Assembly (NCBI GenBank): GCA_918797485.1
Contig: CAKKNE010000006.1
Span: 992,001 to 1,056,000, forward strand
Reading direction: 5' to 3'
DNA length: 64,000 nt
Origin: Pelagomonas calceolata
Lineage: Eukaryota; Sar; Pelagophyceae; Pelagomonadales; Pelagomonadaceae
Below are positions 1,611 to 47,707 of this stretch, piece after piece. The position numbers and the translations under genes are program-made. Below the pieces are notes generated by a model, which was not told the DNA's origin, did no database searches, and saw nothing but the letters and a program-made list of their open reading frames with translations. How positions within the stretch are numbered: the first letter of the stretch is position 1; every line of letters begins with the position of its first letter.

Positions 1611-2684
1611 ATGTTGCTTAGGACAGTGGTCGCGGCAGCCGTGCTGCTGCGCGGCGCGGGCGCATGCACGGCGACGCTGAGCATAGACATCGACGGCGTC
1701 TCGGTGAAGCTCGCGTTCGACAACACGTCCTCTGTGTTCGGCACGGCGCTCCGGCACGTCGCCGAGCTTGGAGACGCCCACGGCGGCGGCCTGATGGGTG
1801 GGAGTTGCGAGACCGGCGACGCGTTTTGCGCCGCCGGCGAGCTCGCGGACGGCGCGCACGCGCTCCTCGCGGAGCGGTGCGGCGACGGCGACGGCGGCGA
1901 CGCGCGTCCCGCGCCGCTGGACGTCCTACAAGTCGGCGCCCACGAAGGAGACAGCCCGGGCGACCCGCTGTACGCCTGGCTGCGGCACCGCGCCGCGCCG
2001 TGGGTCCGCGCCGTCCTCGTCGAGCCGATGCGGGCGAGCTTCGAAGCGCTGGTACGAAACTACGCCGGAGCGGTCGCTTCCATTTCGTACGTGCACGCCG
2101 CCGTCGCCGGGCGCGAGCGGAGGCCGCTGGTCTTCTACGAGCCGCGCCGCTGCGACGCGCCGTATCCTGATGCGAGTCACGACGTCCGCTGCGTCCACGG
2201 CTTCGAAACGTCGACGCTCATCGCTTCGACGAACTGGACATTCGTCTACCACGGCGCGCGATGGATCGTCGACCCGACGGGTTCGACGACCGCGGTGCCG
2301 CCCATCGCACGACGCGAGGTCGCTGGCCTCGATTGGCGCTCCATCTTGGAGGCACACGGCGCGTCCGCGGTCGGCGTCCTCGTCGTCGACGCCGAGGCCA
2401 TGGACTGCGACCTCGTCGCGAGCTTTCCCTTCGACGTCGCCGTTCCCGACGTGATCGTGTTCGAGCAAGGGCACTGCGCCCACGCCCAGCCCGACGAGCG
2501 CGCGGCACTCGATGATTACCTTACGGACGTCCTCGGCTACGCGCGGGCGCCGGGCTTCGTCGGGCACGTCGAGCACGACGCCTGCTACGTGCTGCGATCT
2601 ATGGCGCCGAATCCGCCCGACTCGGCCACGCTGGACCCCATCACCACCCCGCCCGACCGGCAGCGGGGTACGTTCGGGAGCTGA
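1611..2684 (+). CDS. Secreted FkbM-like methyltransferase with N-terminal Cys-pair module
   Basis: A 357-residue protein starting at ATG 1611, which opens directly into a signal peptide (residues 1-18). Residues about 19-80 form the small module found throughout this window: strand-VDG-type hairpin, helix, then Cys66 and Cys73. From about residue 105 comes a Rossmann class I methyltransferase (motif I LQVGAHEGDSPGDP, then VEPMRASFEAL), closest to FkbM-type sugar O-methyltransferases and to the first domain of the large protein at 35.4 kb, which shares the D-DPLY signature. Expected to methylate a glycan or glycoconjugate in the ER/Golgi lumen with S-adenosylmethionine. Substrate unknown. It converges on the next gene with 111 bases between stops. 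Confidence 0.8.
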   Translation: MLLRTVVAAAVLLRGAGACTATLSIDIDGVSVKLAFDNTSSVFGTALRHVAELGDAHGGGLMGGSCETGDAFCAAGELADGAHALLAERCGDGDGGDARPAPLDVLQVGAHEGDSPGDPLYAWLRHRAAPWVRAVLVEPMRASFEALVRNYAGAVASISYVHAAVAGRERRPLVFYEPRRCDAPYPDASHDVRCVHGFETSTLIASTNWTFVYHGARWIVDPTGSTTAVPPIARREVAGLDWRSILEAHGASAVGVLVVDAEAMDCDLVASFPFDVAVPDVIVFEQGHCAHAQPDERAALDDYLTDVLGYARAPGFVGHVEHDACYVLRSMAPNPPDSATLDPITTPPDRQRGTFGS

Positions 2685-2795
2685 CGACCGGCGAAGCCAT
2701 CGAGGCGGTCCTCGCCAGCGTCCCCGGCGGTGCCGAGGTTCTTTACTGCGGCTACCAGCCCCTCGTTCGCACTAGTATTGTTTACCGCATAGTTA

Positions 2796-5700
2796 TCATG
2801 TGCCAGTGGGGGCTTCATCTTCCGCGCACGCCGGCGCAGCGCCGAGGGCCGCCAGCCGGGCGTCGACGCTTGCGCGGAGTTCCCGGAGCGCGTCGACCTC
2901 CCCCGTGCCGCGCGCAGCGTCCGCAAGCGCGACCGCGCACGGCCTACCGGAGTCGTCGCCCGGGAGCGTCGACCAGCCGCGGGTGAGGCACGCCCGCGCC
3001 GCGAATTCCGCGACGTCGGCGCCGGCATCTAGCTCCGCGTAGAGCTCGTCGAGGCCGCGCCCACCGTTGACGTCGATGATGGTGCCGCCGGGCGCGCGCG
3101 GCGGCCGGGCGAGCGCGAGGCCGTCGCCCCACGACGGGAGGTTGACGACGTCGAAGCCGAGGCGGCGCAGCGTCGCAGGCGCCTTGGCGCAGCCCATGCG
3201 CCAGCCGCCCGTGTCGTGCAGGACCGCGACGCCCGACGGCGCGAGGCGGTGCGCCCAGCGCACCGCGTCGGCGACCGCGCCGGCGTGCGAGTGGTCCGCA
3301 TCGACCAGGAGTAGGTCGATAGGTCCGAAATCGAGAGCTTCGTCGTCGGTGCGAGCGACGACGACCTCAATGTCGGGGAACATGTGGCGAAACGCCGATC
3401 CCTCGACGAGGTAGTCTGGCCGGCCGTAGGGCCCGACGTTACCGTCGACGAGGATCGTGCGCGACGCGCGACCGATGCCCGCATCGCGTTGGCCCTGGCG
3501 CACCGCCGCCGGCGCGAAGCCACCGCCGGATCCGAGCACGACGGCCAGGCGCGCGCGCTGAGAATAAGCCAGCGCGTGGTATAAGAGGCCAGTGCCCAAA
3601 AATCCACCGGTCGCCGCGCCGTGCGTGTTCGAAAAGGCGAGCGCCGCGAGCGGCGCTGCCGCCGTCGCGTCGAAGAACGTTGGTGTATCGACGTCCCGTA
3701 GATAGACCTCGACCGTCGCCGCCGCCGCGGCGGGCGTGCCATCCCCAAATGTTACTGTCGCGCGCAGCTCGCACGCCTGCCCCCCGGCGCAGCGACGCGT
3801 GTCGAGCGCCGCATTTTGTGGATTCGTCAGCACGTCGACCGCGGCCGTCGCGTCGCCGAGGCCCGCGCTGCCCCGGTCGACCTGCGTCACCGCCGCGGCG
3901 CACGCGCTTCCGGGAACCTGTGCCTTGCCCAGAACTCCGCCACAGAGGGCTTCGAACGCGTCCAAGTGCAGCGTCGACGGGAACCGGACGCCGAGCCGAA
4001 GCTCCACCGAACCGTCGGCGAGGAGCGCCCCCCGCGCGGGCTCGTCGATCGAGACAGCGCCGAGGAAGCCCTCGCGGGCGGCGTACGCGCGGGCGGCTGC
4101 GGCGCGCGCGGCGAGACCGCCGTCGTCCCGTGCACGCAGCGCCGGCATGTGCTCCCGGACCCAGTCGTTCTCCCGGAGGTCGAGTACGAGCGTGACCCGG
4201 TCGCGCGTGCCCATGTTGACGAGCGTGTGGCGCCGCATCGTGTCGAAGTAGTGGAGCCGCCCCGGCTCCAGCTCGTGGACGGCGCCGAGCTCGGCGAAAT
4301 CCGCCACGAGCGTCTCCAACCTCAGACGCTCCGCGGCGTACGACGAGTTCCGCTCGGCCCACCACGAGTCGGCGCGGTCGTCGCCACACGCCCCGGGTGG
4401 GCCCGTCTGGCACTCGGGGTACGCGTGTTGGTTCAGCAGCGCGTTCGTCGCGGCGAAGTCCGCGCCGCGCGCAGCAATCACCGGAAGAAACGACGCCTCC
4501 GGCAGCAGCAGCAGGAGCCCCTCGGCCACTTCCGCGTCGACGGGGATCTGAACGCGCCGGATGTCCGGCGTCACGTGCAGGTCCTCGTCGTTGTGGAGGC
4601 CGTAGGCCGTCAGGGGCCGCCGCCGCAGCAGCCGGAACGCGACGACCTCGGTCCGCGCGGCGAACCACCCGTGCACCTTTGCAAGGTACGGGCACCGATC
4701 GAAGAGCCCCGCGTCCGCGTGCGGCCGGTTGATGAAGTGGTCCCGGAAGGCCGGCGGCAGCGCTGCGCGCGGCAGGAGCGGCCGCGCGTGGCCGAACTCG
4801 GACGCGGCCCAGTCCCAGCCCTCCAGCGCCACGCGCACGTCGCGCCGAAGCGCAGCGAGGTCGAAGACCCACGGCAGCCGCCAGAGCGGCGCGCCGCGTG
4901 GTTTGTGTCGTTGCGACAAATCCGCAACAGGTTCGGCGCCGAGCGGCGTGCGGACCCCCAGGTCCTCGACGAAAGGCGCCGCCGCGGCCTCCGTGGCGTC
5001 GCCGAGGACCGTGGGCAGCGCCGGCACTACGTCGGGGCTCCAGAGGTACTGGCCGCGCGGGCAGTGCAGGCCGCAGCCCGTCGGGAACGGCGCGAGGCAC
5101 CCGGTCCCCCGGTCGCAGCGCAGCGCGTCCAGCGCCGCGGTCGCGTTACCGTCGAGGCGCCAGTCGTCGGCGACGGCCGCGAGGTTTTCCGCGAGCCGCC
5201 CCCCGTCGGTCGACCGCGGGATGACGGCGATGCCGCGGTCCGCGGCCCAGCGGAGCAGCGCGGCGGCGGGCGAACGGCCCGCGGCGGCCGCAGCGGCGCG
5301 CACCGCCGCCGACTCGAGGAGGTCGCGCCGGCCCTCCTGCACGACGCTGCCGTACGCGACGACCGCGACGCCCGCCCGGCGGCCGAAGTCGACGACGCCG
5401 TCGCGCGGCAGGAGCGGGTGGAGCTCCAGCTGGTCGACGGCAGCGCGGACGCGCGCGTAGCGCCGCATCTCGCGGAGGTGGCGCGCGAGGTAGTTGGACA
5501 CCCCCACGTGGCGGCATAGGCCCGCGTCCCAGGCCTCCTCGAGCGCGCGCCACGCGCCGGCGCGCGCCGCGTAGGCCACGCTCACGTTGCCCTCGACGCC
5601 GAGGCCGCCGATTTCGGTCCAGACCACCAATCGATTGGGATGGTCGGCGGCGACGGACGGCGCCGGGAAGTGGAGGAGTAACAAATCGACGTGGCCGCCG

Positions 5701-6074: not shown

Positions 6075-6140
6075 GCGCGGCAGGCTTGCCAGCACGGAAC
6101 TCGCACGATTTTTTGCGACGCCGCAGAGCCCGATCGGCAC

Positions 6141-6713: not shown

Positions 6714-9700
6714 CTAGAGACTACTGGAGCGCGGCACCACAATAACGCCTATTCCAAAGTACGAGCCGTCGACGTCGTCGTATTGCTCCACGAACTCGTG
6801 CGTCTCGAACTGGTCGCGGACCTCGCGCCAGAAGCGGCGGACGCCCGCGCACGACGGCTCGTCCGACGCGATATCGTGCAGGACGATGTAGCGCGTCGTT
6901 CGGTTCCGCACGAGGTCGAAGTCGCGCCGCACACCGTCGTAGGAGTGGTCGCCGTCGATGAAAGCGAGATCCCACGCGGGCGCCTTCGCCAGAAGCTCGG
7001 CGAACGGCGCCCCGGCCGAATCGAGCTTGCGGAAGCGCGCGGCCGCGTATTCCCGGAGCAGCGCGGGGTCCTGCCACTTGTCGATCGCGAGCGCGCGGAG
7101 GCCGTCGGCCCCCACACCGCCGCTCGCCTCCCCCAGACGGCCCAGCACCTCCACCGTAAACACGAACGTGCCGCCCCAGCGGCACCCGATCTCCAGGTAC
7201 GACGTCACGAGTGGCCCGGCGGCGAGGAAAGCGACGTACGCGCCAAACTGCCGGGGGTATTGGTAAATGCGGAGCCCGCCGGCGTTCCTCAGCATCTCCG
7301 CCGGCAGTTCCCGCGCGTTCTCGTCGTTGACGCCGCACGCCAGCACCAGCGCCTCGACGGCGGCCGCGTCGCGGAGTCGCGCGATCGGCGTCGCACGGAG
7401 GCGTCTCCGCGCCGCGTCCAGCGCCACCGCGGCCCCAATGTCGTAGCCGAACGCCGCGAGGCCCGGGGCGAGCGTGTCGACGTCTCCGAAGTCGCGGACG
7501 CACGTGCGGTCGACGGAAAAAGCCTGATCGAACGCGGCCCAGGCCGGGTTGTCGAAGGCGCGGAGTCTCGCGTGAAGCGCATCCATCAAGGCGCGGCGGT
7601 GCAGATCCTCGACCGAGAGCCACGCGACGGTGAGGTCGTCGCGCGCCTCCCAGTACTGAAGGTGCGCCAGCCACCGGTGCGCGTACCGAGCGAACGGGAC
7701 CGGCCCGGGCGCCGAGCAGTAGGACGCGACGGGATCGCGCGTCACCGCCACGACGAGTGTCCCGGCCCCGAGCCGCGGCGTCGTCGCCTCTACAAAGGGA
7801 TGATGCGTGACTTCGACGTCGACGGGGAAGAGCCCAGCCACCTGCTCGCCGAGGCATCCCGGCGGCGCTGCCACGACGATGGCCTTCGGCGGCGGCGGCG
7901 GCTCCGGAAGGCCGCACTCCTTCGCGATGCGCCGCCGCATGTCGTGCACGATCTCGTCCACGACGCACCGGGCGCCGTCGGCCGCGAGCTCGCAGCCCCG
8001 GCCGAGCTCCAGGCCCGCCCGCACGCGGAAGGCGTCCGCGACCGCACCCAACGCCTCGGCACTCCCATCCACGGGGAACGCGACCTCGTGCGCCACGCCG
8101 TTGACGGACGCGACGAACGTGAGCGAGGCGTTCGCGCCGCAGCGAGGCGCGAGCAGAGGCTCTTCTGAGACCCCGCCGTCGACGAGCTCGGCGACGCGGC
8201 GCTTATATTCATCCTTCGCGCGCGCCCACCAGGCGCGGACCTCGGCACTCAGCGTCCGCAGCGCCGCGACGTCGTCCCGCAGCGCCAGCACCCGACCGAC
8301 ACTCGCCGCGGACCACTCGCCGTCGACGACGGGAAACGGCGCGTCGAACCAGCGCTTGTAATACAGACTCGACACCACGGGAATGGCGCCGGCCTCCAGC
8401 GCTTCATAGGTCCGGTAGCACTCGACGTGGTTGTTTCCCGGGGGCGACGGGGCGAAGACGACGGACCGCAGCGCGCGCCGATATTTCTCCGGTGCGACGG
8501 CGCTCTCCAGTCCCCGCCGCCACGACGATTCGTTCGTGGGGACGTCCCATGCGGTGCCTCGCCGCCAATTTCCCACGGAAGTCGCGTCGAGGCCTGCCGT
8601 AATGTGCACGAGCGCGGCGTCCCCGCGCCGCTCGCCCTCCCGCAAAAAGCTCGCGAGCGCGTGCGCCCGCGCCGGCGACTGCGCGCGGCCCAGGAAGCCC
8701 CAGGCATACCGGCGCGTCGTGACGTCGTCGTCGACGGCCCCCTTCAGAAAGGCGGTCGGCCCCAGCGGCGCGACGAGCTGCGTCCGCCGCAGCCGAGGGA
8801 CCGCGTCTGGGTCCTGGTAGGCCCCGAAGCCGAGGCGGAGCACAAATGCGAGGCGATTTACGAGTTCGCCGTTCGCCTCGAGCCAGTCGCCGTGGTTCTC
8901 GTCGACCACGACCAGACCGACGCGCTTCCGGCCCGCGGCGCGCCAGAGCCGAGCGCTCTCGTTGACAAAGGCGTGCTGCACGTCCTGCTGGTGCGTGTTC
9001 ACCATGAGGATGACGTTCTGGGCACGGTCGAGCGCGCTGACTAGCGTCAACCGCGCGGTCGCCCGCGGTGCGCCCGGCTCGATCCCACCGCGGATCTCTG
9101 AAAACAACCGCTGTAACCAATCCGCCTCCCATCGATCGCTCCCCTGGTCCAGCGCGTAGAAGACCCAACGGTCCTCGTCGACGTCCTCTTCCTGTATCCG
9201 TCGCGGGACGAGCCGCCGCGCGTTTTCCAGGACATGATCCTCGGTCGCGCCCGGTAGCTCGATCGCGGAGAAGGCGCCGAACCTCGCGAGGCCGTGGCTG
9301 GCACGCATCGCGGCGCGCGACGCGACGTCCTGGCTGGCGTCGCAGAACGTTGTACCGAGCGCTTCTACGAACGCCGCGCGCGGCTCACACCGCGCTTCAA
9401 CAAAAGCGGACCAGGCCGCGGCGACGGCCGCAGCGCGCGGTGCGCCGGACCGCAGGAACGCGACGAGGCCGTCCCTGGCCGTGCCCACGGCGCAGCCTTC
9501 GAATGCTCTAAAAGGATCGTCGACGAGGAATACATTGATAGAAGCCACGACCACAACGTCGAAGCCCGACGCCGTCAGCGCGTGCGCGGCTGCCACGGAA
9601 CCCGTGGGTTCGACCCACACGTCGCTTCCACGCTCCCCTAAACCGCCCGGCGCCGCGACGAGCGCCACGACGCCAACCGCTTCGGCTGCCGCCGCCCAGG

Positions 9701-10100
9701 CGGCCGCGACCCGGGCCTCGCTCGGCCTCGCGTGAGCAATCGCAACGCGGCGCGGCCCGGCGCCGCAGCGCCGGGCCGTGCGCGCGGCGAGGCCGGCTAT
9801 TTTCGGCGCGAGGCGCACGCCGGCGGTCGCGTTCGCCTCGCAGCGCAGTGGCGCCGGCGGCGCCTCGTCTTCGACGGCCGCGCGCAACGCGTCCGCGACG
9901 ACTTTCCGCACGCACGGCGCGTCATTGGCACCGCAGCCGGCGCCTTCGAGCCGCGGTAGACTCAAGGAAGCGACGTACGCATCAATGTCCGTGGCGTCGT
10001 CGGCCTCCAGGGAAAGAGTAGCATCGTCTACATTGAGATTAAGCACCGCGGCGCCGGCGAGGGCAAGCAGCCCAAACCACAACGGTTGCGGCCGTCGCAT
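6714..10100 (-). CDS. Multidomain glycosyltransferase, sulfotransferase-like and methyltransferase fusion
   Basis: A 1128-residue protein from ATG 10100, signal peptide 1-18. Order: Cys-pair module 18-78 (Cys56, Cys63); a degenerate nucleotide-sugar-transferase-like segment 95-290 (GFDVVVVASINVFLVDDPFR); an exostosin/GT47-like domain about 310-640 whose core is SVVFAPSPPGNNHVECYRTY then LEAGAIPVVSS; a second Cys-pair module 655-728 (Cys703, Cys712); a sulfotransferase-like segment about 738-920 (IVVAAPPGCLG, VAVTRDPVASY; low certainty); and a class I methyltransferase about 930-1128 (YLEIGCRWGGT, LAFIDGDHSYDGV) of the CmcI/rhamnosyl O-methyltransferase type. The two modules bracket the glycosyltransferase. 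Expected lumenal. Acceptor unknown. Confidence 0.8.
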   Translation of the reverse strand: MRRPQPLWFGLLALAGAAVLNLNVDDATLSLEADDATDIDAYVASLSLPRLEGAGCGANDAPCVRKVVADALRAAVEDEAPPAPLRCEANATAGVRLAPKIAGLAARTARRCGAGPRRVAIAHARPSEARVAAAWAAAAEAVGVVALVAAPGGLGERGSDVWVEPTGSVAAAHALTASGFDVVVVASINVFLVDDPFRAFEGCAVGTARDGLVAFLRSGAPRAAAVAAAWSAFVEARCEPRAAFVEALGTTFCDASQDVASRAAMRASHGLARFGAFSAIELPGATEDHVLENARRLVPRRIQEEDVDEDRWVFYALDQGSDRWEADWLQRLFSEIRGGIEPGAPRATARLTLVSALDRAQNVILMVNTHQQDVQHAFVNESARLWRAAGRKRVGLVVVDENHGDWLEANGELVNRLAFVLRLGFGAYQDPDAVPRLRRTQLVAPLGPTAFLKGAVDDDVTTRRYAWGFLGRAQSPARAHALASFLREGERRGDAALVHITAGLDATSVGNWRRGTAWDVPTNESSWRRGLESAVAPEKYRRALRSVVFAPSPPGNNHVECYRTYEALEAGAIPVVSSLYYKRWFDAPFPVVDGEWSAASVGRVLALRDDVAALRTLSAEVRAWWARAKDEYKRRVAELVDGGVSEEPLLAPRCGANASLTFVASVNGVAHEVAFPVDGSAEALGAVADAFRVRAGLELGRGCELAADGARCVVDEIVHDMRRRIAKECGLPEPPPPPKAIVVAAPPGCLGEQVAGLFPVDVEVTHHPFVEATTPRLGAGTLVVAVTRDPVASYCSAPGPVPFARYAHRWLAHLQYWEARDDLTVAWLSVEDLHRRALMDALHARLRAFDNPAWAAFDQAFSVDRTCVRDFGDVDTLAPGLAAFGYDIGAAVALDAARRRLRATPIARLRDAAAVEALVLACGVNDENARELPAEMLRNAGGLRIYQYPRQFGAYVAFLAAGPLVTSYLEIGCRWGGTFVFTVEVLGRLGEASGGVGADGLRALAIDKWQDPALLREYAAARFRKLDSAGAPFAELLAKAPAWDLAFIDGDHSYDGVRRDFDLVRNRTTRYIVLHDIASDEPSCAGVRRFWREVRDQFETHEFVEQYDDVDGSYFGIGVIVVPRSSSL

Positions 10101-11082: not shown

Positions 11083-13083
11083 ATGCGCCTCCTAGTCGCG
11101 CTACTATGGTGCCGTCTCGCTGCGCCGCACGCAAACGTGACGACTGTGCATTTAAGCATACCTTTCGAGGACGGGGCGCGAACCCTTGTGTGGCGCCGCG
11201 CGGCCGAATCCGCAAAAGAAGCCTGTGCGCGCTTCGCAGCAGAGCAGGGGCTCAACGGAGACGTCCTCCCGGACCTCGAGGCGCTCGTCGCCTCCCAAAC
11301 GGCGCTGAGAAAGGTCTCACCGTCGCTGTTTGCGGCGCCGAGCTGGTGGCGCCCCGCGGAGGCCGCCGGCACAATCGCCTTCTTCGGCGGGCACGACGCG
11401 AGCGTGGCTGTTGCTGCGGCCGACGGGACCCTGCTGTGCGTGCTGGAGTTGGAGCGGCTCTTTAACGATCGCTACTACTCGTCGTTTGGTCCCGACGGGG
11501 CGACGCCTAGAGAGTCGTTCGACGAGGACTGGCGGCGCGCGCTTCTCGTTATTCGCGACCGGTCTGAGTGCGCTTATCCGAGGACCTTCGCGCGCGGCAT
11601 CGTCGTGGAGACCGGCGCGTCTCGCTACCGGCTCGAAAAGCTCGTGGAAGAGGTATTCGACGTAGAAACGTGGCTCGCGTGCGATCACCACGAGGCCCAC
11701 GCCAGGCTTGGTTTTTTCGCGTCGCCGTTCGCGTCCGCTTTGATCGTCTCGTACGACGGCGGCGGGAACGACGGTCATTTCAACGTATATGTGGGCCGGC
11801 GGAATCAGCTGGAGCGGGTCGGGCGCTTGGACTACTCGCTGGGCCAGACGTATTTAACGGTAGGGAGTCTGCTGCGCGAGGTCACGAATGATCAGACGTC
11901 GCCGACGCTCCGGGACTTCTGCGCATTTGCTAAAGGTGAAAAACCAACTTTCAGTTGGAACGCGCACCCGAAGCCCCTCGCCCTCGCCGGCAAGCTCATG
12001 GGCTACGCCGCGACCGGATCCGTCAGAGACGATCTCCGCGCGGCCGCGCGGGGGTTGTTGCTGGCGAAGCCAGCGGATCTCTGGCGGGACGAACATCGCA
12101 ACGGCGTGTCCCGAGCGCTCGCGGAGGCCGTCTGCGGCGAAGATATGCAGGGAGGGCGCGACTTCGCGGCGACAGCACAAAACGAGTACGAGGGCTTCGT
12201 CCTCGAGGTCGTCTCCACGTTATTGGAGCGCGCGGGCGGTCCCGGAGCGGTCGACGGCGTCGTGTTGGCCGGGGGTTGCGGTCTGAACGTGCGGGCGAAC
12301 CAGCGCGTCTTCGACGAGCTCGGTGCAGCGGTGTACGTCGCTCCGGCGCCGAACGACGCGGGCCTCGCCGCGGGCGCCGCCTGGAAGGTGACGCCGCCGC
12401 CGCGAAGGCCAGCGCGACCGCAGCACCTTGGTTTCGGGCTATGGGACGGCCCGGACCTCGCGGACGCCGCCGCGGCGCGCGGCGCGCGGAACCTGACGGA
12501 GCTCGGCGGCGTCGAGTACCTGGCGGCGCTGCTCAACGGCGCTCACACGAGTGGCGCGAAGCCGATCGTCGCCGTCGTCCGCGGGCGCCAGGAGTTCGGA
12601 CCAAGGGCACTCGGGAGGCGGAGCTTGTTGGCGGTGCCGGACTCGGTCGATGCGCGCAACCGTTTGAATCGACTCAAGCGCCGCCAGTGGTACCGGCCCG
12701 TCGCGCCGATGGTCGCCGAGGAGGCCATGGCCGACGCCTTCGGCCGAAGCGTGCCGTCGCCCTATATGACCATGGCGCCAGACGTTTCGCCACCGATCGC
12801 GCGCGCGTTCCCGGCGCTCGCTCACCTCGACGGCACAGCGCGCCACCAGTCCGTCGCCCGGAGGGACGACGCGTGGCTCCACGCGCTTCTGCGGGCCGTC
12901 GGCAAGCGGACCGGTCTGGCGGCGTTGATCAACACCTCCTTCAACACACGCGGCAAACCCATCTGCAATACGCTCAAGGAGGCGTTGACCATTCTCGACG
13001 AAGAGCCGGACCTCGACTACCTCCTCGTCGACGACTGGCTCTTCGCCAAGTCCGCCACTCCCAGGGGCGGCAGGGAACTCTAA
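11083..13083 (+). CDS. Secreted NodU/CmcH-family O-carbamoyltransferase (1 of 4)
   Basis: A 666-residue protein with signal peptide 1-17, then a divergent module (18-75, VHLSIPFEDGARTLVW, no Cys pair). The carbamoyltransferase fills the rest: GGHDAS with His104, the metal-binding DHHEAHA at 200-206, YDGGGNDG 223-230, GGCGLNVRANQ, and the C-terminal YrdC-like domain with EFGPRALGRRSLL and INTSFNTRGKPI. In this family (NodU, CmcH, TobZ, SxtI) carbamoyl phosphate and ATP give carbamoyl-adenylate, which is passed to a hydroxyl of a sugar or alkaloid. All signature residues look intact. The stop converges on the next gene with 13 bases between. Acceptor unknown; the signal peptide makes a glycan acceptor in the secretory pathway most likely. 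Confidence 0.93.
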   Translation: MRLLVALLWCRLAAPHANVTTVHLSIPFEDGARTLVWRRAAESAKEACARFAAEQGLNGDVLPDLEALVASQTALRKVSPSLFAAPSWWRPAEAAGTIAFFGGHDASVAVAAADGTLLCVLELERLFNDRYYSSFGPDGATPRESFDEDWRRALLVIRDRSECAYPRTFARGIVVETGASRYRLEKLVEEVFDVETWLACDHHEAHARLGFFASPFASALIVSYDGGGNDGHFNVYVGRRNQLERVGRLDYSLGQTYLTVGSLLREVTNDQTSPTLRDFCAFAKGEKPTFSWNAHPKPLALAGKLMGYAATGSVRDDLRAAARGLLLAKPADLWRDEHRNGVSRALAEAVCGEDMQGGRDFAATAQNEYEGFVLEVVSTLLERAGGPGAVDGVVLAGGCGLNVRANQRVFDELGAAVYVAPAPNDAGLAAGAAWKVTPPPRRPARPQHLGFGLWDGPDLADAAAARGARNLTELGGVEYLAALLNGAHTSGAKPIVAVVRGRQEFGPRALGRRSLLAVPDSVDARNRLNRLKRRQWYRPVAPMVAEEAMADAFGRSVPSPYMTMAPDVSPPIARAFPALAHLDGTARHQSVARRDDAWLHALLRAVGKRTGLAALINTSFNTRGKPICNTLKEALTILDEEPDLDYLLVDDWLFAKSATPRGGREL

Positions 13084-13096: not shown

Positions 13097-16000
13097 CTAC
13101 AAGGCCCGGGCACGAGCCGCGGACATGCACTCGGTGTATGTCTCACAGTTGTTGGCAGTGACGCTTGGCCTTCGGTCGGCGTCTCTCAACATCACGGCCT
13201 CGAGCCGACCGACGGCGCACGCGACGTCACACTCGGGGGCGGTCGCGACGCCGTGCACGGCCGCGAAGCGGCGCGCGGCGTCGAGGGCCGTCTCGTTCGC
13301 AAACCACCTCACCGCCTCGGGGCCCGGCGCCGCGCCCATCGGCGGTACGAGATTCACCACGATCTCACGAAACGGCGCCGTTGCGTTTGGCAACACTTGC
13401 GACGGCGTCTGCGTCGCGGCTGGCCTTGGTCGGCAGCGGAGCGGTCCTCGACCACCGAAAAAGTCCGCGACGTGGGTCCAGAGGCCGTCGAAGGAGAGGT
13501 GCGGAGCGGTAGCGAGTGCGGCCGCGCGCCGCGCGGCTAGGTCGTCTGGGGCGCGAGGAGCGTCCAGGAGTCGCCTCATCACGTCTCCGAGCGCGTCGAC
13601 GCGGACAACGTCGACAGGTAGCGCGTACGGGAGCCAGGGCTCGTCGTCGTACACGTAGATCGGTAGCGCGCCTGCGGCAAGGCACTCGTAGAGAAAGAAC
13701 GAGCTCCGGCCGTACCCTCGCGGTGCAACCACGTACGTCGCCTCGTTGAGGCGGGAGCGCCAGTCTTGACCAAAATACGTTACCGTGGCGGCGTCGAGCG
13801 TCGGATCTCCCGCGATGATGTCCGCAATGCGCCTTCTGACGGCGTGCGTCGCTCGGCCGCAGAGGAGGAACGTGTATTTGCGGGGCAGTAGCGCCGCCGT
13901 AAATTCGCCTCCATCATCAAATGGCCGCGTGATCCCGTCGGCAACGAGCGGCAGCGCGACGTCGCCCGCGCCGCCCGCGCTCAGGACCAGTAAGTTTTTC
14001 GAAGCCGCGAGGCCCACGTCGAGCACGCGCAAGCCCTCGTCGTGTTGGGACAGAGTGACGTACGCGACGTCCGGCCGCATCGCGGCCTTGAGAGCCTCTA
14101 CAGATGCCGCCATGGCAGCGTCCATCGCATCGTCCGTCCCTCGCAGAAAGACCGCGTCCGTCCACTGCGCGAACACGGGCACGCGACCGCCGAACGCCTC
14201 TTTCGGTTGATTGCGCCACCGATCGATCCACGCGTTCTCGAGCCACGGCCCGTTGAAATGACCGTACTCGTGCGGCGCCAGGTTCCGGAGCCCGGCGGTC
14301 GCGGTGTCAACCTCGGCGAAGCGCTCGGACCACGCGTCGTCCTGGCGCGCCCCGGTCCCGCACGGAGGCGGTGCCGGCGCGGGGTACCTGCGCCGCGTCG
14401 CACGGAGCGCTTCCGTGAGTGCGGCGGCGTCGAGGCCGCGGCGGCGGGCGAACGCAACCGCGATCGCGTCCAAATCATCATCCGGGTGGAAGAGCACCGT
14501 CTCCTCCTCAAAACTGGTCTCGAGGCGCGCGTGGCCGCCTAGATAAGCTGTTCCCATGGCCGTCCGGTGCCAGTTGCGCGACGCGCGCTGCGTGGCGAAG
14601 TGGATCACGACAGCGTAGCGGAACGCCGCGGGCGTCGCGGCCCCTGCCGGGAATGCTCCGGTCGCGTGGAGCAGCGCGCCGTCGAAGAAGAGGACGTCGC
14701 CCTCATTGACGGCGACGGCGATACGTGTCGCGTTTATGCCCGCCGCGCCCGCCGCGGCGGCCGTCTCCGTAAAATTCCGCACCTGTCCGGCCGTCACAAA
14801 GTCCCGGGCGGCCCAGCGGTGCGAGCCCGGCGCGACCACCGTGGCGCCGGTCCGTGCGTCGGTGTCCTGTAGGAAGACCATAGCCGCGAGGTGCGTGCCG
14901 TGTTCGCCGCGGTGCGACCGCGTCTCGCGCATCCGAAAGGCCGCCTCCTGGTTCGTGAAGTCGTAGTGCCACACGTTTTCGCGCGTGGACGGCGCCCCGA
15001 CGTAGACGGTGCAACCGTGGACCTGGTGGTCGGCGCCGAGGCGGGCTGCGGCGATGCCGCGTATTACCGGCAGGTCGACGAGCGGCCGCACGAGCGGCCC
15101 CACGGCGGCGTCGCCCAGCAACCCCCAGAGCCGGTAGCTCGCGTGGTCGTCATGCGCCGACTCATCAGTCGTCGCGCAGCTCGGACTACCAAACATCGTT
15201 TTGCAGACCTCCGCCTCTTCTAATCGCGCCACGAGGCGGGCGCGCAACAGCTGCAGGTCCGTTGCCGTGTCAGCGCCGGCGTCCGTACGTGAGACGACGG
15301 CAAAGCCATAATTTTTGAGATCCTCAAGCGTGGTTTGGATAGGATCGGCCCGGGTAACTTCTAAATACCAATAACCGTGTACGTCCGGCCCCTCGACCTT
15401 GTCAAAATTCACGTCGCGTGCGGCGCGGACCATCGACGAGAAATCTTCAAGTACTGACCCGCCCGCGTTCTCTTGGAAGATGACGCGGCCCCCGGGCGCG
15501 AGGAACCGCCCTATGTTTGCGTAGAAACGCGCGTGGAGGCGCCAGCCCGCGTCGACGGTCATGGCTCGCGTTCTGTCCGACGACGGCGTCCGCGCGCCGC
15601 CGACCATGGCCCACCACGCGTCCCAGGCGTCCGCCGAAACGAAATGGGGCGGGTTCGAAACAACGAGGTCCAACCGGCCCTCCTCGGACTGCGGCAGGCC
15701 CGCGAGGCCGTCGCTCACGTAGGCGACCGCGCGATCTCCAAGTTCGTTAACCCGGATCGTCTCGCGTGCAGCGGCGACAGAGAGCGGATTCACGTCGACG
15801 AGCACGAGATTTTTACACGCGGCGCGGCCCAGGAGAGCAAATCCGATGAAACCCGGCCCGGCGCAAAATTCGAGGCACCGCCGATGCGCTCCCAGAGCCG
15901 CGGCCTTGTCGACAAGCGCGGCGCCGAACGCCGTGTTCCCGCCGCCGTGGGCCATATCCGGGCGCGACAGGTATTGTACGGATATGCCGCCCGGTGCGTC

Positions 16001-20695: not shown

Positions 20696-21778
20696 ATGCT
20701 GCGTCTCGCAGCGGCGTGCGCGGCGCTGGGTGGCGTCCTGGCGCTCGAAATTGCCGTGCCGGTCGATGGCAATGACTTCCTGGTCAGCCTGCGGGACGGG
20801 CTCCCGCCGTCCGAAATGGCCAGCGAGGCGCGCATCGGTGCACGTGCCGTCATCGACGCGCTCAGGGACGCGGGCGGCCTGGGCGGAGGCTGTCCGGCGG
20901 ACGACCGCGACTGTCTGGTGGAGGTTGTGGCGGGCTACATCGCGGCGCGCGAGGACGCGACGCGCGTGCGCTGGCCCTTCGAGGCGGCATACGGCGGGCC
21001 GGTGCCGCGCGCGACTTTTCAATTCGTGATCACCGCTCTCGCAGCGCACGGTGTCCGCGGCGGCCTCGTCGAAATCGGCGCCAAGGCCGGCAAGTCATTC
21101 CTGGCCCTTTTGGAGCCGTGGTGGAGGTCGGGCATGGGTGGCGGCGGCGTCGCTGTCGCGATCGACGTGTGGGGCGACCAGGACGCCAACCCCGACCGGA
21201 GTGGCTGGGGCGGAGCCCTCAGCGACCCGGCCGCGTGGGGCGCAGGCAACCGCGCGATGCTCGAGGAACACGTCGCGGCCGCGGCGCGCGCCGTGGGCGA
21301 CGACGCGCTACGGGACGCGGTCGTTCTGCTTGAGCACTCGTCCCTCGACCTCGCGCCGGCGGCGCTCCGCGCCGCCGCCGGGGGCGAGGTCGCTGTCTTT
21401 TCCGTCGACGGCTGCCACACGTTCGCGTGCGCTCGCTCCGACCTCGAGCTCGCGTGGGCCGTCCTCGCGCCGCGCGGCGTCGTCGTCGTCGACGACTACG
21501 TGGCCTCGGACGAGTGGCCCGGCGTCTCCTTCGCGGTCGGGGCCTTCCTCGCGGCGCACGCAGACGCGGTGCCCGTCGCGTACGGCGCGCGTCGCCTCTA
21601 CCTCGCGCGCGCGCCGGCGGCGCCCTTGCTCTTCCAAATCTTCAGGTCCTTCTGCGGGGCGACGGCTGCCCGCCGGCGTGTCGACGTCGACTCCGTCTGC
21701 ACGACGCGCGCGGGCACGGGGCCCGGCGGCGCTGACGTCCTCTTTGTCCGCGACGGCGCGGACCCCGGGTCTCTCTGA
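20696..21778 (+). CDS. Secreted class I methyltransferase with Cys-pair module
   Basis: A 360-residue protein from ATG 20696; signal peptide 1-16. Residues 17-85 are the Cys-pair module (VPVDGNDFLV, Cys66, Cys73, then LVEVVAGYI). From about 100 a class I methyltransferase of the Methyltransf_24 type: motif I LVEIGAKAGKSFLALL (124-139), AIDVWG, VFSVDGCHTF and VVVVDDY. Likely S-adenosylmethionine-dependent O-methylation of a lumenal sugar. Substrate unknown. Confidence 0.82.
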   Translation: MLRLAAACAALGGVLALEIAVPVDGNDFLVSLRDGLPPSEMASEARIGARAVIDALRDAGGLGGGCPADDRDCLVEVVAGYIAAREDATRVRWPFEAAYGGPVPRATFQFVITALAAHGVRGGLVEIGAKAGKSFLALLEPWWRSGMGGGGVAVAIDVWGDQDANPDRSGWGGALSDPAAWGAGNRAMLEEHVAAAARAVGDDALRDAVVLLEHSSLDLAPAALRAAAGGEVAVFSVDGCHTFACARSDLELAWAVLAPRGVVVVDDYVASDEWPGVSFAVGAFLAAHADAVPVAYGARRLYLARAPAAPLLFQIFRSFCGATAARRRVDVDSVCTTRAGTGPGGADVLFVRDGADPGSL

Positions 21779-40667: not shown

Positions 40668-40671
40668 ATGA
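40657..40671 (+). other. Minimal upstream ORF overlapping the main start
   Basis: ATG at 40657 opens a four-codon frame (Met-Ala-Thr-Arg) whose TGA (40669-40671) overlaps the main ATG at 40668. It lies 3 bases after the promoter box. It would only matter if the transcript starts upstream of it. Confidence 0.45.
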
Positions 40672-43600
40672 TGGCATGGTGGGCAGCATGGTGGGCAGCC
40701 CTGACGGCGGCCGCACTTGCCCGGGCGGCAGCCCTGACGCCGACGGAAACGGCACTCTGGACCTGGGCCGAATCACAGGGTGCAAACGTCTCGCGCATCG
40801 TTCCGACGACGGGCGTGTACGGGCGCGGCCTCGCGGCCGTCGACGGCAGCCAGGGAGAGCTCCTCTCGCTGCCCCGCCACCTGATCATGGGCTGCGACGC
40901 GGTCGCACGCGTCGCCTTGGAGCTGCCCGGCGTCGTCGCGTTCACGGGCTGCGAAGACGGCGTGGGCCGGACGTCCATGCGCTTCGCCGGCGGCTTTGAA
41001 GCCTGGGACGGCAACACCCTGGTCGTGTTCGTCGCGCACCACAGGTTACTGGGCGCCGCGAGCCCGTGGGCGCCCTACCTGGACTCGCTCCCCGCCAGCT
41101 TCGACACGCTGCCTCCTTACCTGCTGGCCGTCGCGGCGGTCGGCGGCTCGGCGGAGGAGGCCGTCCGGGCGATGGACGCGGCCGACGCGTTCGAAGGGGG
41201 CGCGCTCCGGGACGTCGTACAAAAAGAAGCGTCGAAGTGGCTCTACTTCTCCCGCCTCGTGGCCGCGGCGTTCGCGGACCACGCCGGCGTCGAGGCGACG
41301 CGGGCCCTGCGGACGGTCCTGTGGGCCAAGGCCGTCGTCGCCACGCGCGCCGTCCACCTCTCCTCGCTCGGACGGTGCCTGGTGCCGTTCTGGGACCTCA
41401 TCAACCACGGCGCGTACGCGGCCAAGCGCGAGGTCGTGGACGACGAGCGCGTCGCGTACGTCCGGGACGCGCCGTCCGACGGCGGCGAGCTCGTCCACGA
41501 CTACCAGTTGAGTTCCTCCACCGGGGGCGCGTGCGCCTGGGACTGGCTCATCACCTTCGGCTTCGTGCCGCGCGACGCGCAAAAAGTCGTCGTGTGCGCG
41601 CGCGTGCGCGTCCGCGGCGAGGTGTTCGAGCTCCCGGCGGACGCCGCGGCCCTCGCGCGCCTCGACGGCGAGGACGCGCGGCGCGCGCTCGAGGGCGCCC
41701 TCCTCGCGCTCCCGCCGGAGGACGCGCTCCGTGACGACACGGGAGACGCGGCCTACGTCAAGCTCCTCGAGCGCCGCGCGCTCCTCGACGCGCTGCGGGG
41801 CGGCGCGCCGAAGGAGGTTTTACGGCACGCGGTCGTCGTCGACGGCCGCGCGGAGACGATCAACTACGCGCCGTGCGGCAACATAACCAAAGCGGCGCGC
41901 GCGTTCGTCGACGAGCATCTCACGGATCTCACCGACGAGGCGCGTCGCGACCACGTCAACCGGCTCCGACCGATGCTGGCGAGCAAGATCGACGATCATG
42001 CGTGCGCGTCGAAGCGTGCAGACGATGGCGAGGTCTGGCTGCACGAGGAAACTCGCGTGATCAGCGCGATGGGCTACTCGACGCCCGTGAGCGGCCACGA
42101 CCTCGTCACGTTCACGCACCTCGTAAATCTGGAGGCGCGCGCCGCGGCCGCCGCGGCGCGCACGTCGGGCGTCGGCGGGCTGGGCTGCGTGCCGGGCGAC
42201 GTGGGGTGTTTGAAGGACATCTTTGTAAGGCGGGGCCGGGAACTCGCCGAGGCGCAGCGGCAGAAAATGGCCGGCGAGGGGACGTTTGTCGGAGAGAAGT
42301 TCGGCTGCGCGTTGAATGGAGAGGGACCGGCGCCCGCCGTAGACGCGGCCTTCGCGCGCCTCGTTGCAAAGTGGACGCGCGTCGCCGTCACGGTCGCCGC
42401 GCGCGACGTCCTCGACTTCGCCGCGTCGTGGGGCCGCGGGTTATTGGATGCGGGCGCGCCGCAGTTCGTGGTCGCGGTCTATGACGAGGACGCGGCGGCG
42501 ACGCTCACCAAAGCGGTGGGCGCGGACCGGGTCGCGCGCGTGGCCGCGGGCACGACGCTCGCGGCGCTCGCGCGGGCGGCGCACGACCTAGGAAAGGACG
42601 TGCTCGCGACGGTGCCCGAGGTCGGTTTCCGCGGCGACCCGTGGCCGGCGCTCGCGCGGCGGCCGTGCGGCGCGCAGCTCCTCCCGTCGGGCTTCGAGGA
42701 TAGCACCGCCGAAAGGCACCTCGCGGACGAGGTGCGGCGGTGGTCGTCGAGCCACCGGCACAACCCCTTCTTGACCTGCGCGGCCCAAAAGCGGGCGCAC
42801 TGGCGCCACGTCGTCGGCGTGGCATATCTACGAGCAAACGATCCCGCCGCCGCGGCGATCGCCGACGCGTGGGCGCGGTATGCATCAAAATGCGCGTTCC
42901 ACGCGGCGCTCGAGGCCGCGCTGGCCGAGGCGGCGCTGGCGGGCTTTGATTTTTGTGGTTTGCGTTTGGAGGACGGCTTCGCGACACCATTTCACTTCTG
43001 GATGCTGGATGCAAAGGAAAAACATTTCCAGTGGTTCGTGGGCGACTGGACCTCGCCCGCGTCCGACAACGTGACCCTGGTCTACCCGGCGCGCCTGGAC
43101 GCCGCTTGGTTCGAGGACGGGCACCTGATCCCGCCGCTCATCGACGCGACGTGTTTGGCTTCGAAAAGGGAAGTGCTGCGCACCGCGGGGGCCTGGTTCG
43201 GGCGTGGTACGGAGGAGCCGCCACCTCGCTTCCTTCCCGGCGGGAGAGAACCGCCTCGTAATGAAGTGACGTTCGCGCTCTACGAGACGGACGCTGGCGA
43301 GAGGTGCCGCACGGCGTACTTCGACAAGATCTGGAGTGAATTGAAGAGGCACCCGCAGCGCGCGACGAACGCGGAAGACGTAACCTTCGTGCTGGCGGAC
43401 CTCGACACGATGATGTGGTCCTGGCCGAACCCAAATCTAGGCTTGGTGGGCCCCACGAGCTGGATTGCGGGCGACCGACCGACGTGCTACCCCTGGCCCT
43501 TCACGGGACAGCTCGTGATGGCCCCGTCGCTCTCGTCGGAAGACGTGGCCAACGCGCTCAAGGACCCGCGCCAGCGGCCGCCTCACATATTCGGGGCGCG

Positions 43601-44502: not shown

Positions 44503-47391
44503 TCAAAGGTCGTCGCGCGGATCGCTGCAGGCCCCCGGGCACGCCGCGCATTTCTCGAAGAGCGCGTCCTCGACGACCACGTAGCCGAGTTCCGGCTCCT
44601 CGCACAGGAGACTCAGCGCCTCGGCGGCCGTGTTAAGGATCGGCTCGCCTCGCCGATTGAAAGATGTGTTGCAGACGACCGGTTCACCAGTCAGTTCGGC
44701 GAGCGCCTCTAGGACGGCGTAGACCCAGGGCTCGTCGACCCGCTCGAGACTCTGCAGCCGCGCGGTGCCGTCGACGTGGCATACCGCGGGCAGCTGCGCG
44801 CACGCCTCTGGGGTGAAGCGCGGAGCGACCGACATGTGCGGCGAGCGCCAGTGCTCGCCGGCCTCAAAAAGAGCGGGCGCCGCAGCGGCAGCGACGATGG
44901 GAGCGACAGGCCGCCACGCCTCGCGGTACTTCAGGCGGTTGAGCCGCGCTTTCGCACGCGGGGACGTCGCGTCTGCGAAGAGGCTCCGGTGGCCCAGGGC
45001 CCGCGGGCCGTGCTCGCTGCGGCCGCGCGCAATTCCCACGATTGCGCCCGCGGCGACGAGCTGCGCCACCTTATTTGCCAACGCGTGGTCGTCAGTAAAA
45101 GTCTCGGCGCGACGATCCGCCGCGAGACTGGGTAGGTCATCCAGGTCAAAGAGGCCCGGTCCAGCGAACATGAGATCGCGGGGCGCGTCCAGGGGCGGCG
45201 GCTGCGCTGAGTAGAGCGCCCCGACGCCAATGCCACAATCTGAAGGCGCCGCCGGGATCGTGACGGGCAAGGCGAGCGCGCGGTGCAGCGCCGTGTTGCA
45301 TCCGACGTTCAGCGCGCAGCCGCCGGCGACGGCGAGCGCGTCCGGCCGGCGTCCGGCGAGCTCCAACGCGCCGCGGATCTCGTCGGCGACGATCTCCTCG
45401 AACGCGCGCTGAGCCGACGCCGCGATGTCGGCGTAGTCCACGTCCAGGCTTCGCAAGGAGATCTTCAGGGCGTCGCGGATGTTCTGCGTCAATAACGAGA
45501 CGTCGTGTTCGGTCGGAGTCCCGAGCGACGCGTACCCGTTCATTTTTCCTGGGCCGGCGAGGTGCTCCCGGTCGCGTTGCGAAGCTGTCCTATTTCGGCA
45601 GTACGCGTCTACCCCGGGATCGTCGCGGCGGTTCCGCGGGGCGCACTTCGCAACTTCTGGAATCTGCTCCGCGACCAGCGCGTACCCGCTGCCCAGGTTG
45701 AGCCGCTCCCACCGTCGACTACTCGCGTCGAGGCGCCGGAGGGGCCTCGCAAGATCTCCGGTGGGCTCGAACACCGCAAAGAAGCCGTCGTTGCCGCCGC
45801 CGTCGTACGAAAGCACCAGCGGCCAGACGTAGCCCCGACTCAACGCGTCGTAGTACGCCAGGCTCGCGTGGCTCGCGTGGTGGTCCGCCGCGTACCAATC
45901 CCTCGCGATGGAGGCTAACGCGGAGGGGAAGACGGCGGTCGGCACGGCGACGTAGACGCCCACGTCGAAGACGTCGACGCCCGCCAGGCGTCGCGCGTCG
46001 CGCAGCGCGCGCGCCCACGCGCCGTCGGCGTCGTCGACGAATCCGGGGTGGAAGTAGCGCCGGCGCTCGCGCCGCTCGAGTTCGACGACGCCCAGGACGC
46101 GGCCGGCCCGCGCGACCGCGAGGTGCGCGTCGTGGCCGGAGAAGACGCTCACCATCGTTTGATTTTCTGGTACGGGCTTCCTTAGGGCATCGAGGTGCTG
46201 TGTCGTTTCGGGTAAGTCCGGCGTATCCAATGCAGGCCAGTACCAGAGCGCTTCCGACGCCTCCGCGGCGCCGCCGCTCGCTCGCATCCCGTCACCAACT
46301 GGCGCGTCCCACCGCGTCTGGTAGCTCGCGACGCGCGGATCGTCGAAATCGACGGCGCCGGGCACCGGGAACGCCGCGTATTGATACATGGCAGCTCCTC
46401 TGTTCGATTCGCCCCCGTCTTCCTCGAAGGTCTCGCGAACTTCGGAAACTCGCCGGACGGCGCCGCTCGCCTCGTGGCGCCGCAACGCCGCCGCCGGCCC
46501 GGGCCACTCGAAGTCGTCCAGAAACGCAACGTGATAATCCGGGTTCGCCAGCGCGGCCAAATTCGACATGTCGTCGAAGGCGCCCTCGATGGTGTGGTCG
46601 CCGTCGACCACTAAGACTTCGCACTTGATCGACGGGTGCGCCCGAGCGAAACTCGGTACCGTCGCGCGCGAGTTGCCCCTGACGACGCGCAATCGGTGTG
46701 ACGCGTTTTTCACGTGTACGGCCGCGGCGGGCGACCTGAACCATTTCTCCGCCAGTTCCGCTCCCTCGTACTGCCAGAGGTCGAACGCGAGCACCTCGAC
46801 CTCCGGATTCGCCCGCAGCCACAACGCCGCCGAGTGGCCGCGGTTAAACCCGATCTCGCAGACCCGGCGCACGCACGGGGACGCCGCGGCCTTGATATAG
46901 GCCTGGCGCTCTTTTTGGAGTTGATACGAGCCGCCCTCTTGACTCGTGTTCCAGGGCACCGCGGCGTCCAGCGCCTTCGTGAGCTCGTCGTAGGGCCGCA
47001 GATCGACCGCATCATAACCGCTCAACGGGTCCGCGCTACGGCAGGCGGCATACTCTTCAGCCGTCGGCTGCGGTTGTAGACCAGGGAACCAGGGCGCCGC
47101 CAGCGCCTCCGCCACTCCCACGATCGCGCGCGTCTTGGCCGCCTCGTCGCTTTCAAGGCAGTGGCGGCGGCGCGCCGCCAGCTGCGTGACCAATTCCTCG
47201 ACCACGCACTCCTCCGTGGCGCACCCCTCGCCCATGATTTCCGCATCGCCGAGGTGGGTGCGGACGAACGTCACGACGTCTTCGTATGACGTGTCCGCGG
47301 CGAGCACGTGGTCGACGTGGTCGACGACCAGCGTGAGGAAGCAATTTCTTTCCGCACGCGCCGCCCCCAGCAGCAATGCCGCCAAGAACAT
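44503..47391 (-). CDS. Secreted methyltransferase-carbamoyltransferase fusion (carbamoyltransferase 4 of 4)
   Basis: ATG 47391 opens a signal peptide (MFLAALLLGAARA), giving 962 residues. Residues 14-75 are the Cys-pair module (LVVDHVDHVL, Cys57, Cys62). Residues about 165-330 are a class I methyltransferase (VRRVCEIGFNRGHSA, CEVLVVDGDHTIEGAF). Residues about 410-962 are the NodU/CmcH enzyme: FSGHDAHLAV near 418, ADHHASHASL near 502, YDGGGNDGFF, GGCALNVGCN, EHGPRALGHRSLF near 792, CNTSFNRRGEPI near 907; intact. A single polypeptide that can both methylate and carbamoylate matches the pattern of decorated sugars such as novobiocin noviose, where both marks sit on one ring. Its ATG is one base after the stop of the upstream small ORF. 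Confidence 0.9.
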   Translation of the reverse strand: MFLAALLLGAARAERNCFLTLVVDHVDHVLAADTSYEDVVTFVRTHLGDAEIMGEGCATEECVVEELVTQLAARRRHCLESDEAAKTRAIVGVAEALAAPWFPGLQPQPTAEEYAACRSADPLSGYDAVDLRPYDELTKALDAAVPWNTSQEGGSYQLQKERQAYIKAAASPCVRRVCEIGFNRGHSAALWLRANPEVEVLAFDLWQYEGAELAEKWFRSPAAAVHVKNASHRLRVVRGNSRATVPSFARAHPSIKCEVLVVDGDHTIEGAFDDMSNLAALANPDYHVAFLDDFEWPGPAAALRRHEASGAVRRVSEVRETFEEDGGESNRGAAMYQYAAFPVPGAVDFDDPRVASYQTRWDAPVGDGMRASGGAAEASEALWYWPALDTPDLPETTQHLDALRKPVPENQTMVSVFSGHDAHLAVARAGRVLGVVELERRERRRYFHPGFVDDADGAWARALRDARRLAGVDVFDVGVYVAVPTAVFPSALASIARDWYAADHHASHASLAYYDALSRGYVWPLVLSYDGGGNDGFFAVFEPTGDLARPLRRLDASSRRWERLNLGSGYALVAEQIPEVAKCAPRNRRDDPGVDAYCRNRTASQRDREHLAGPGKMNGYASLGTPTEHDVSLLTQNIRDALKISLRSLDVDYADIAASAQRAFEEIVADEIRGALELAGRRPDALAVAGGCALNVGCNTALHRALALPVTIPAAPSDCGIGVGALYSAQPPPLDAPRDLMFAGPGLFDLDDLPSLAADRRAETFTDDHALANKVAQLVAAGAIVGIARGRSEHGPRALGHRSLFADATSPRAKARLNRLKYREAWRPVAPIVAAAAAPALFEAGEHWRSPHMSVAPRFTPEACAQLPAVCHVDGTARLQSLERVDEPWVYAVLEALAELTGEPVVCNTSFNRRGEPILNTAAEALSLLCEEPELGYVVVEDALFEKCAACPGACSDPRDDL

Positions 47392-47392
47392 C

Positions 47393-47707
47393 CTAGGACG
47401 CCGCGACACGCTCGCGGAGCTCCTGCGCGAGCGCCGCGACCATGCAGTCGCGGTACTTGTCCGCACAGAAGCTGTCGGGCGCGTCCGTCGTGCGCGTCTC
47501 GACGATGCAGTCGGAGGCGTCCTTGGCGCAGGCGCCGTTGGCCGCCTTCGGGTTCTCCTCGAGCCAGGCGCGCGCGACCGCTTCGTAGTCGTCGCCGCGC
47601 GAGAAGTGCAGCGGCCGGTAGCGGCCCGCGACGTGGATCTCGAGGCTGAGCTGTTCCGCGGCTGCCCAGCCGGCGACAACTGCGGCCAGGAACCCATGGC
47701 GCGTCAT
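47393..47707 (-). CDS. Small secreted protein: free-standing Cys-pair module
   Basis: A 104-residue protein from ATG 47707 with signal peptide MTRHGFLAAVVAGWAAA and then only the module: LSLEIHVAGRYRPLHF, helix, Cys60, Cys67, and an extra pair Cys81, Cys88, then MVAALAQELRERV. The stop TAG (47395-47393) is followed by one G and the ATG of carbamoyltransferase 4. The only promoter box on this strand (47721-47728) is 13 bases before this ATG, so one transcript probably carries both frames. A frameshift or sequencing error joining them is possible, but the second frame has its own clean signal peptide and complete module. Confidence 0.7.
   Translation of the reverse strand: MTRHGFLAAVVAGWAAAEQLSLEIHVAGRYRPLHFSRGDDYEAVARAWLEENPKAANGACAKDASDCIVETRTTDAPDSFCADKYRDCMVAALAQELRERVAAS

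Follow-up and report, generated by a model that had tools for sequence, protein, structure and literature searches.

A recurring module with a predicted docking-type fold on glycan-type enzymes of Pelagomonas calceolata

RESULTS

A small unit recurs in a 64 kb window of the P. calceolata genome

The stretch analysed here, referred to as the window, comprises 64,000 nucleotides of the pelagophyte Pelagomonas calceolata (C6:992001-1056000); positions without a contig prefix count from its first letter, and window genes are named by their lowest position. The searched genome holds 32,445,274 bases in 8 contigs, and for strain RCC100 the genome report gives a size of 32.4 Mb, with six nuclear contigs in addition to plastid and mitochondrion, a mean G/C content of 63% and an intron density of 0.45 per gene (PMC9481584). 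Per 4 kb bin, the G/C content of the window is 0.66-0.73. Judged from sequence profiles, a unit of about 60 residues that recurs here is one homologous domain present in many genes of the alga. Its layout is a beta-hairpin, a helix, a C-x(3-9)-C loop and a long helix, and it usually stands directly after the secretion signal, by which we mean a hydrophobic N-terminus read from the sequence. The accepted copies in the window are listed below with the number of shuffles scoring as well; held-out scores stem from a family profile built without the copy in question, the others from scoring copies outside the 22-sequence profile against it, with 1000 shuffles each.

1671..1880, + strand: copy that follows the hydrophobic N-terminus of gene 1611-2684; held-out 24.3 bits, 0/300 shuffles
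7914..8126, - strand: 6714b, internal in gene 6714-10100; held-out 28.9 bits, 0/300
9864..10049, - strand: 6714a, N-terminal in gene 6714-10100; held-out 34.8 bits, 0/300
13187..13372, - strand: 13097b, probable copy with Cys pair, C-terminal in gene 13097-16297; 14.4 bits, 0/1000
14381..14533, - strand: 13097a, probable copy, Cys-less, after PhyH in gene 13097-16297; 13.5 bits, 0/1000
16507..16698, + strand: N-terminal copy in gene 16468-18096; held-out 47.2 bits, 0/300
20349..20528, - strand: N-terminal copy in gene 18201-20576 (Glyco_transf_61); held-out 25.5 bits, 0/300; marginal in the first test
20741..20956, + strand: N-terminal copy in gene 20696-21778 (Methyltransf_24); held-out 24.5 bits, 0/300
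26457..26636, + strand: C-terminal Cys-less copy in gene 24477-26666 (MTS + PhyH); held-out 24.9 bits, 0/300
41820..41990, + strand: 40668a, internal in gene 40668-44495, without Cys pair; 17.3 bits, 0/1000; marginal in the first test
42072..42260, + strand: 40668b, probable copy with Cys pair, internal in gene 40668-44495; 11.4 bits, 2/1000; weakest accepted copy
47164..47343, - strand: N-terminal copy in gene 44503-47391 (Methyltransf_24 + carbamoyltransferase); held-out 29.4 bits, 0/300
47402..47653, - strand: stand-alone module gene 47393-47707; held-out 44.3 bits, 0/300

The copies score above decoys and shuffled sequences

The first test used leave-one-out profiles of ten core window copies; each copy was set against 500 shuffles of itself and against 287 decoy tiles taken from these proteins. 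Seven of the ten (1611, 6714a, 6714b, 16468, 20696, 44503 and 47393) scored above all decoys and shuffles, 18201 (3/287 decoys and 3/500 shuffles as good) and 40668b (3/287 and 8/500) were marginal, and 13097b failed, with 227 of 287 decoys as good. Of five non-core copies, only 24477 scored above every control; the outcome was marginal for 40668a and 13097a and negative for 11083 and 32141. When copies from the rest of the genome were added, all 22 held-out members of the enlarged family reached 24-54 bits, each with 0/300 shuffles as good; within this set C4:1178011 and the protein P0015 are orthologous and support each other, and 6714a and 16468 are 62% identical. Overall the copies are highly divergent (7-62% identity to the 16468 copy).

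A tile control covered 4167 six-frame tiles, with the copies of the profile itself excluded. Ten of the best 12 tiles fall on accepted or plausible copies (40668a, 13097a, 13097b; C6:938238 twice, 947959, 973823 and 959178), and two are chance-like, one of them a shadow frame opposite the 29861 gene at 14.5 bits, the other at 10.9 bits. Because a chance tile can reach 14.5 bits, 13097b (14.4), 13097a (13.5) and 40668b (11.4) are graded as probable only; 13097a is strengthened by its 40% identity to the 24477 copy and by its location, since both follow a PhyH domain. The Cys-less unit at the N-terminus of gene 11083-13083 (11134..11307, + strand) was rejected at 4.7 bits and 29/1000 shuffles (in the first test, 24/287 decoys and 48/500 shuffles did equally well), and an insert in 32141 and the C-terminus of 2796 scored at shuffle background against the 22-sequence profile. 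The latter gene (2796-6140, - strand) joins in a single frame an aldo-keto reductase, a weak Asp/Arg-hydroxylase match below the cut-off and Methyltransf_24.

An earlier note on this DNA, made from the sequence alone, had described ten copies of an unnamed unit. We confirm its coordinates, the hydrophobic N-termini and, for the seven copies where it numbered them, the cysteines, and eight of its ten copies are firm; the one at the C-terminus of 13097 is probable and that in 11083 is not retained, while 24477 (firm), 40668a, 13097a and 40668b had been missed. The core of that description, a recurring unit without a name, is borne out by the 22 held-out members together with the absence of a match over a curated cut-off in Pfam, NCBIfam and PHROGs. 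Pfam was run on window and genome copies; the 11 window module sequences gave zero matches in NCBIfam and, in PHROGs, one-member matches (best E 0.041) that were not convincing. Sequence searches against the PDB returned best E-values of 0.0086 (proteinase A, 24 positions), 0.043 and 3.4, which we read as chance, and a literature search, with subscription journals outside its scope, found no account of such a domain.

Copies elsewhere in the genome and in other organisms

When 264 kb surrounding the window were scanned with a profile, strong copies emerged upstream at C6:987653, 977442, 986392 and 935127; in the 100 kb downstream none was convincing (best 13.8 bits with one profile, at most 9.9 bits with the final one). 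Whole-genome protein queries led to further copies at C4:514610, C6:2903541, C4:1178011, C1:5875443, C2:119912, C5:1029918, C5:3954103 and C4:5009608, while the retrieved piece of a candidate at C2:859542 held no module (3.3 bits). Queries with single sequences are too insensitive for this purpose, as the N-terminus of 1611 matched only itself in the genome, and the genome copy count is thus a lower bound. Upstream, C6:938238-939962 (- strand) encodes a protein whose transferase-like middle lies between two plausible modules, one of 21.3 bits and a second, flanked by cysteines, of 12.3 bits. At C2:119912 (L046, L051) the reading frame that contains the module is weakly GT2-like and meets an in-frame stop directly behind the module, perhaps owing to an intron.

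Outside this genome, the C4:1178011 module query returned 11 relatives, all with PF03407, and the module is kept in the ten that were aligned. In the most divergent of them, P0015 (54% identity overall), the stretch VDGEPRPLGFLRGDD is unchanged compared with P0005. Taken over its full length, the module shows no stronger conservation than the enzyme part, with 35 of 59 identical positions compared with 122 of 185. Four proteins matched a chimeric query of 433 residues assembled from window copies: three are near-identical to 24477 and 16468, and the fourth is the metagenomic P0004, whose first ~60 residues are near-identical to 47393. After this shared half of the module P0004 continues into a different product with a module-like start (13.2 bits, 0/1000 shuffles) that Pfam does not name. 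From the sequences, it looks as if a 5' module unit had been swapped between genes. A consensus query found no module among 2078 candidates at E ≤ 10, and viral contigs (prokaryote contigs and PADLOC being outside the scope) contained no copies.

The module is joined to varied glycan-type enzymes

Within the window, module partners over the Pfam cut-off include Methyltransf_24, RXYLT1_C, exostosin (in 40668), GT61, MTS + PhyH and carbamoyltransferase; elsewhere in the genome PF03407, FkbM and a GT31-type galactosyltransferase are added. Four of the eight dispersed copies carry a glycosyl- or methyltransferase named by Pfam (Methyltransf_24, PF03407, galactosyltransferase, FkbM). The GT2 partner in the C2:119912 frame is a weak match (E 0.12), and several partners, among them 1611, 16468, C1:5875443 and C6:2903541, are left unnamed by Pfam. 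The earlier note went too far in saying that the fused enzymes share nothing else, as Methyltransf_24 is common to 6714, 20696 and 44503, and MTS + PhyH to 13097 and 24477. The module is not tied to Methyltransf_24 genes: none of four distant ones (of 27 matches in the genome), inspected over 0.9-1.0 kb upstream, carries it.

Copies are found N-terminally behind a short hydrophobic stretch, internally, C-terminally and alone. In 6714 the second copy opens the second half of the protein, with an RXYLT1_C/exostosin-like part on one side and a part ending in Methyltransf_24 on the other, as if two signal-module-enzyme genes had been fused. The stand-alone protein 47393 consists of a hydrophobic N-terminus and a module with an insert of ~20 residues and a second Cys pair; its gene ends 1 base upstream of the start codon (ATG) of the gene that follows it in the same orientation (47391-47707).

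A transmembrane scan of 20 module proteins accepted one stretch, in C5:3954103; five further proteins have hydrophobic windows, starting at 1.63-1.77, which were taken for domain cores. KDEL or HDEL is present at none of the visible protein ends (C1:5875443 is incomplete), and from their sequences the module enzymes look soluble. In C5:3954103 (L049) a segment of high hydrophobicity (mean 2.02 from residue 147) follows the module and precedes a coiled-coil-like part with 'LLAAIR' repeats, whose resemblance to the WH2 motif is not significant (E 0.31). The protein is likely a membrane protein with one transmembrane stretch.

The window itself appears to belong to a glycan-type gene cluster, here in a eukaryote. 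Four of five genome-wide matches to Carbam_trans_C fall inside it, and seven of the 27 Methyltransf_24 matches lie within C6:976-1040 kb, five of these seven in the window. The stretch 11083-51312 (C6:1003-1043 kb) and the upstream flank also hold pyruvyl transferase, FkbM and GT61 genes. By contrast, FkbM, GT61 and PhyH matches are dispersed over the genome; their counts are lower bounds, as the window gene 50407, detected by Pfam, escaped the FkbM search.

Cysteines are gained and lost in pairs

For the 21 genome copies in the profile, both cysteines of the inner pair are present in 19, neither in two (24477 and C4:1178011), and a single one in none (the trimmed L046 copy being scored by eye). 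Among the four window copies outside the profile, the pair is present in 13097b and 40668b and absent from 13097a and 40668a, the last of which has one stray Cys elsewhere. In a second pair the two cysteines bracket the unit, immediately ahead of strand 1 and immediately behind helix 2; this pair occurs in 1611 (in addition to its Cys66/73), 6714b, 44503, 987653, 977442 and 935127. Counted automatically, both, only the N-terminal, only the C-terminal or neither of these positions are cysteines in 7, 2, 2 and 10 copies, respectively (Fisher p = 0.009), and in 6, 0, 2 and 13 when signal-stretch cysteines and the inner Cys of L046 are discounted by eye. Since cysteines come and go in pairs, disulfides and a setting in the secretory lumen fit, and the module is probably pinned by one, sometimes two, disulfides.

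The predicted fold resembles that of docking domains

Structure prediction, which the earlier note had proposed as a check, was carried out for the 16468 copy (pLDDT 78.9) and the 24477 copy (pLDDT 91.5, pTM 0.78), and both are predicted to have one beta-beta-alpha-alpha fold. We compared it with known structures by VIA-align re-scoring of a Foldseek list. Among the 50 matches listed, the top groups for the predicted fold are the p97-binding domain of VCPIP1, the SNF5 repeat, the PFU domain of PLAA and the CCT domain of WNK/OSR1; matches of middle Z (ribosomal, 5.1; Ufm1 and a ubiquitin fragment, 3.3) were read as background.

By sequence, PFU is the nearest of the three families tested (PFU, CCT and SNF5). 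The best module match to PFU of PLAA/Doa1 (PF09070, PDB 2k89) reaches 13.3 bits (E 0.095) against a cut-off of 26.2, and is the sole Pfam match of the C4:1178011 module. PFU is also the only family matched by more than one of 28 modules, namely by two, with five of the 28 belonging to the C4:1178011 ortholog group; for single modules, some unrelated families gave better E-values (Secretin_N, 0.038). The one genomic PFU over the Pfam cut-off, C3:2763963, scores 5.0 bits with the module profile (2/1000 shuffles as good). In profile-profile comparison with two PFU sequences the whole family scored 17.8 (maximum 14.0 in 200 shuffles), the 19 Cys-bearing copies 16.9 (14.3 in 150 shuffles) and the family without the C4:1178011 group 16.2 (13.9); seven GDD-type copies, chosen for that motif, scored 30.1 (probability 84%). 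With the nine window copies alone the link was lost (33/150 shuffles as good). PLAA/Doa1 has the architecture WD40-PFU-PUL, and neither WD40 nor PUL appeared in Pfam scans of the module proteins. As the module stays below the curated cut-off and stands outside a WD40-PUL context, we call it PFU-like and do not assign it to PFU. PFU is cytosolic and binds ubiquitin, whereas the module appears to be lumenal with disulfides, a setting in which ubiquitin binding is unlikely.

The repeats RPT1/RPT2 of SNF5/SMARCB1/SFH1, which act in nuclear chromatin remodelling, scored 13.5-14.0, confined to 16-17 columns (Probab 1-2%; shuffles as good 1 and 4/200, and 0, 0 and 1/60 in other sets). The CCT and CCT-like domains of OSR1, SPAK and WNK scored 8.7-12.0 with hhalign, all below the shuffle maxima; their hosts are intracellular kinases and they are not known to carry a disulfide. 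The VCPID of VCPIP1, a cytosolic deubiquitinase, was compared by fold alone. As to partners, VCPID docks on p97/VCP, SNF5 RPT on BAF155 and PFU on ubiquitin. The ligands of CCT domains are short RFXV/I peptides (PMC4512625, PMC12266122).

DISCUSSION

We lean towards reading the module as a lumenal docking-fold domain, pinned by disulfides, that would hold glycan enzymes together. An intracellular docking fold of the PFU/CCT type seems to have entered the secretory lumen and acquired disulfides, and may serve soluble enzymes there as a protein- or peptide-docking unit. Since the enzymes look soluble and no KDEL or HDEL end was seen, some means of keeping them together or in position is needed; the module could bind them to each other or to a membrane partner, for which C5:3954103 would be a candidate, and they might then act jointly on one glycan. 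Docking to proteins or peptides is the most economical reading, as the groups matched by the predicted fold dock proteins, CCT domains recognise short peptides, and a conserved aromatic platform is missing. With the predicted fold in mind, the term 'lumenal docking tag' is plausible. A bolder version, to which we give only a limited chance, sees a docking code of the lumen: PFU/CCT-like domains, elsewhere cytosolic or nuclear, would have come to stand after signal peptides, gained disulfides and been copied to the front, the interior and the rear of unrelated glycan enzymes. These enzymes, many of them encoded in a single chromosomal stretch of ~105 kb, would join one another and the module-bearing membrane protein in a soluble assembly line that makes one surface glycan.

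It is possible, if rather improbable, that the module is a sorting or retention signal for one receptor, an ER/Golgi or surface address without a role in assembly. Soluble-looking proteins whose visible ends show nothing like KDEL must somehow be retained, and the module is common to varied enzymes; but no receptor was found, the copies diverge strongly (7-62% identity with that of 16468), and the idea overlaps with docking.

A little more doubtful is a folding or stability cap, similar to a pro-domain, with no partner beyond its own chain. The many copies directly behind the signal stretch, the paired cysteines and the leading position of the module before an enzyme unit in 6714 and 44503 would suit it. 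Against this, copies are also C-terminal (24477, the GT31-type C5:1029918, probably 13097), inside the weakly GT2-like frame or alone (47393), the partner folds are unrelated, and the four distant Methyltransf_24 genes do without a module.

The earlier note had considered a glycan-binding tag, in the manner of a carbohydrate-binding module (CBM), that keeps each enzyme on a common polysaccharide. Many Pfam-named partners are indeed glycosyl-, methyl- or carbamoyltransferases, and one copy (47393) occurs on its own, yet we regard this as clearly unlikely: Pfam finds no CBM on the module sequences, no lectin or CBM title is among the 50 fold matches listed, and the two mostly aromatic columns (12/22 and 13/22), which lie where strand 2 ends and within helix 1, probably belong to the core and form no conserved aromatic platform.

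Chance or compositional similarity of alanine-rich helices in a G/C-rich genome could account for the marginal copies of the first test and for the one shadow-frame tile among 4167, but is highly improbable given 22 members at 24 bits or more with 0/300 shuffles each, ten of the best 12 decoy tiles on accepted or plausible copies, and one predicted fold for both models.

In summary, the fold is a known one, while a secreted, probably disulfide-pinned branch of it on unrelated glycan enzymes is undescribed in the libraries and literature searched. To our knowledge, it is not well understood how soluble lumenal glycan enzymes stay together and in place. If our reading holds, a portable lumenal docking domain of 60 residues on the enzymes of an abundant ocean alga would offer a direct handle on this question, since the unit could be deleted or exchanged, and the fold, familiar from docking in the ubiquitin, p97 and kinase contexts, would reach into the secretory pathway. 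The module can also be used as a marker for enzymes that may build the pelagophyte cell surface.

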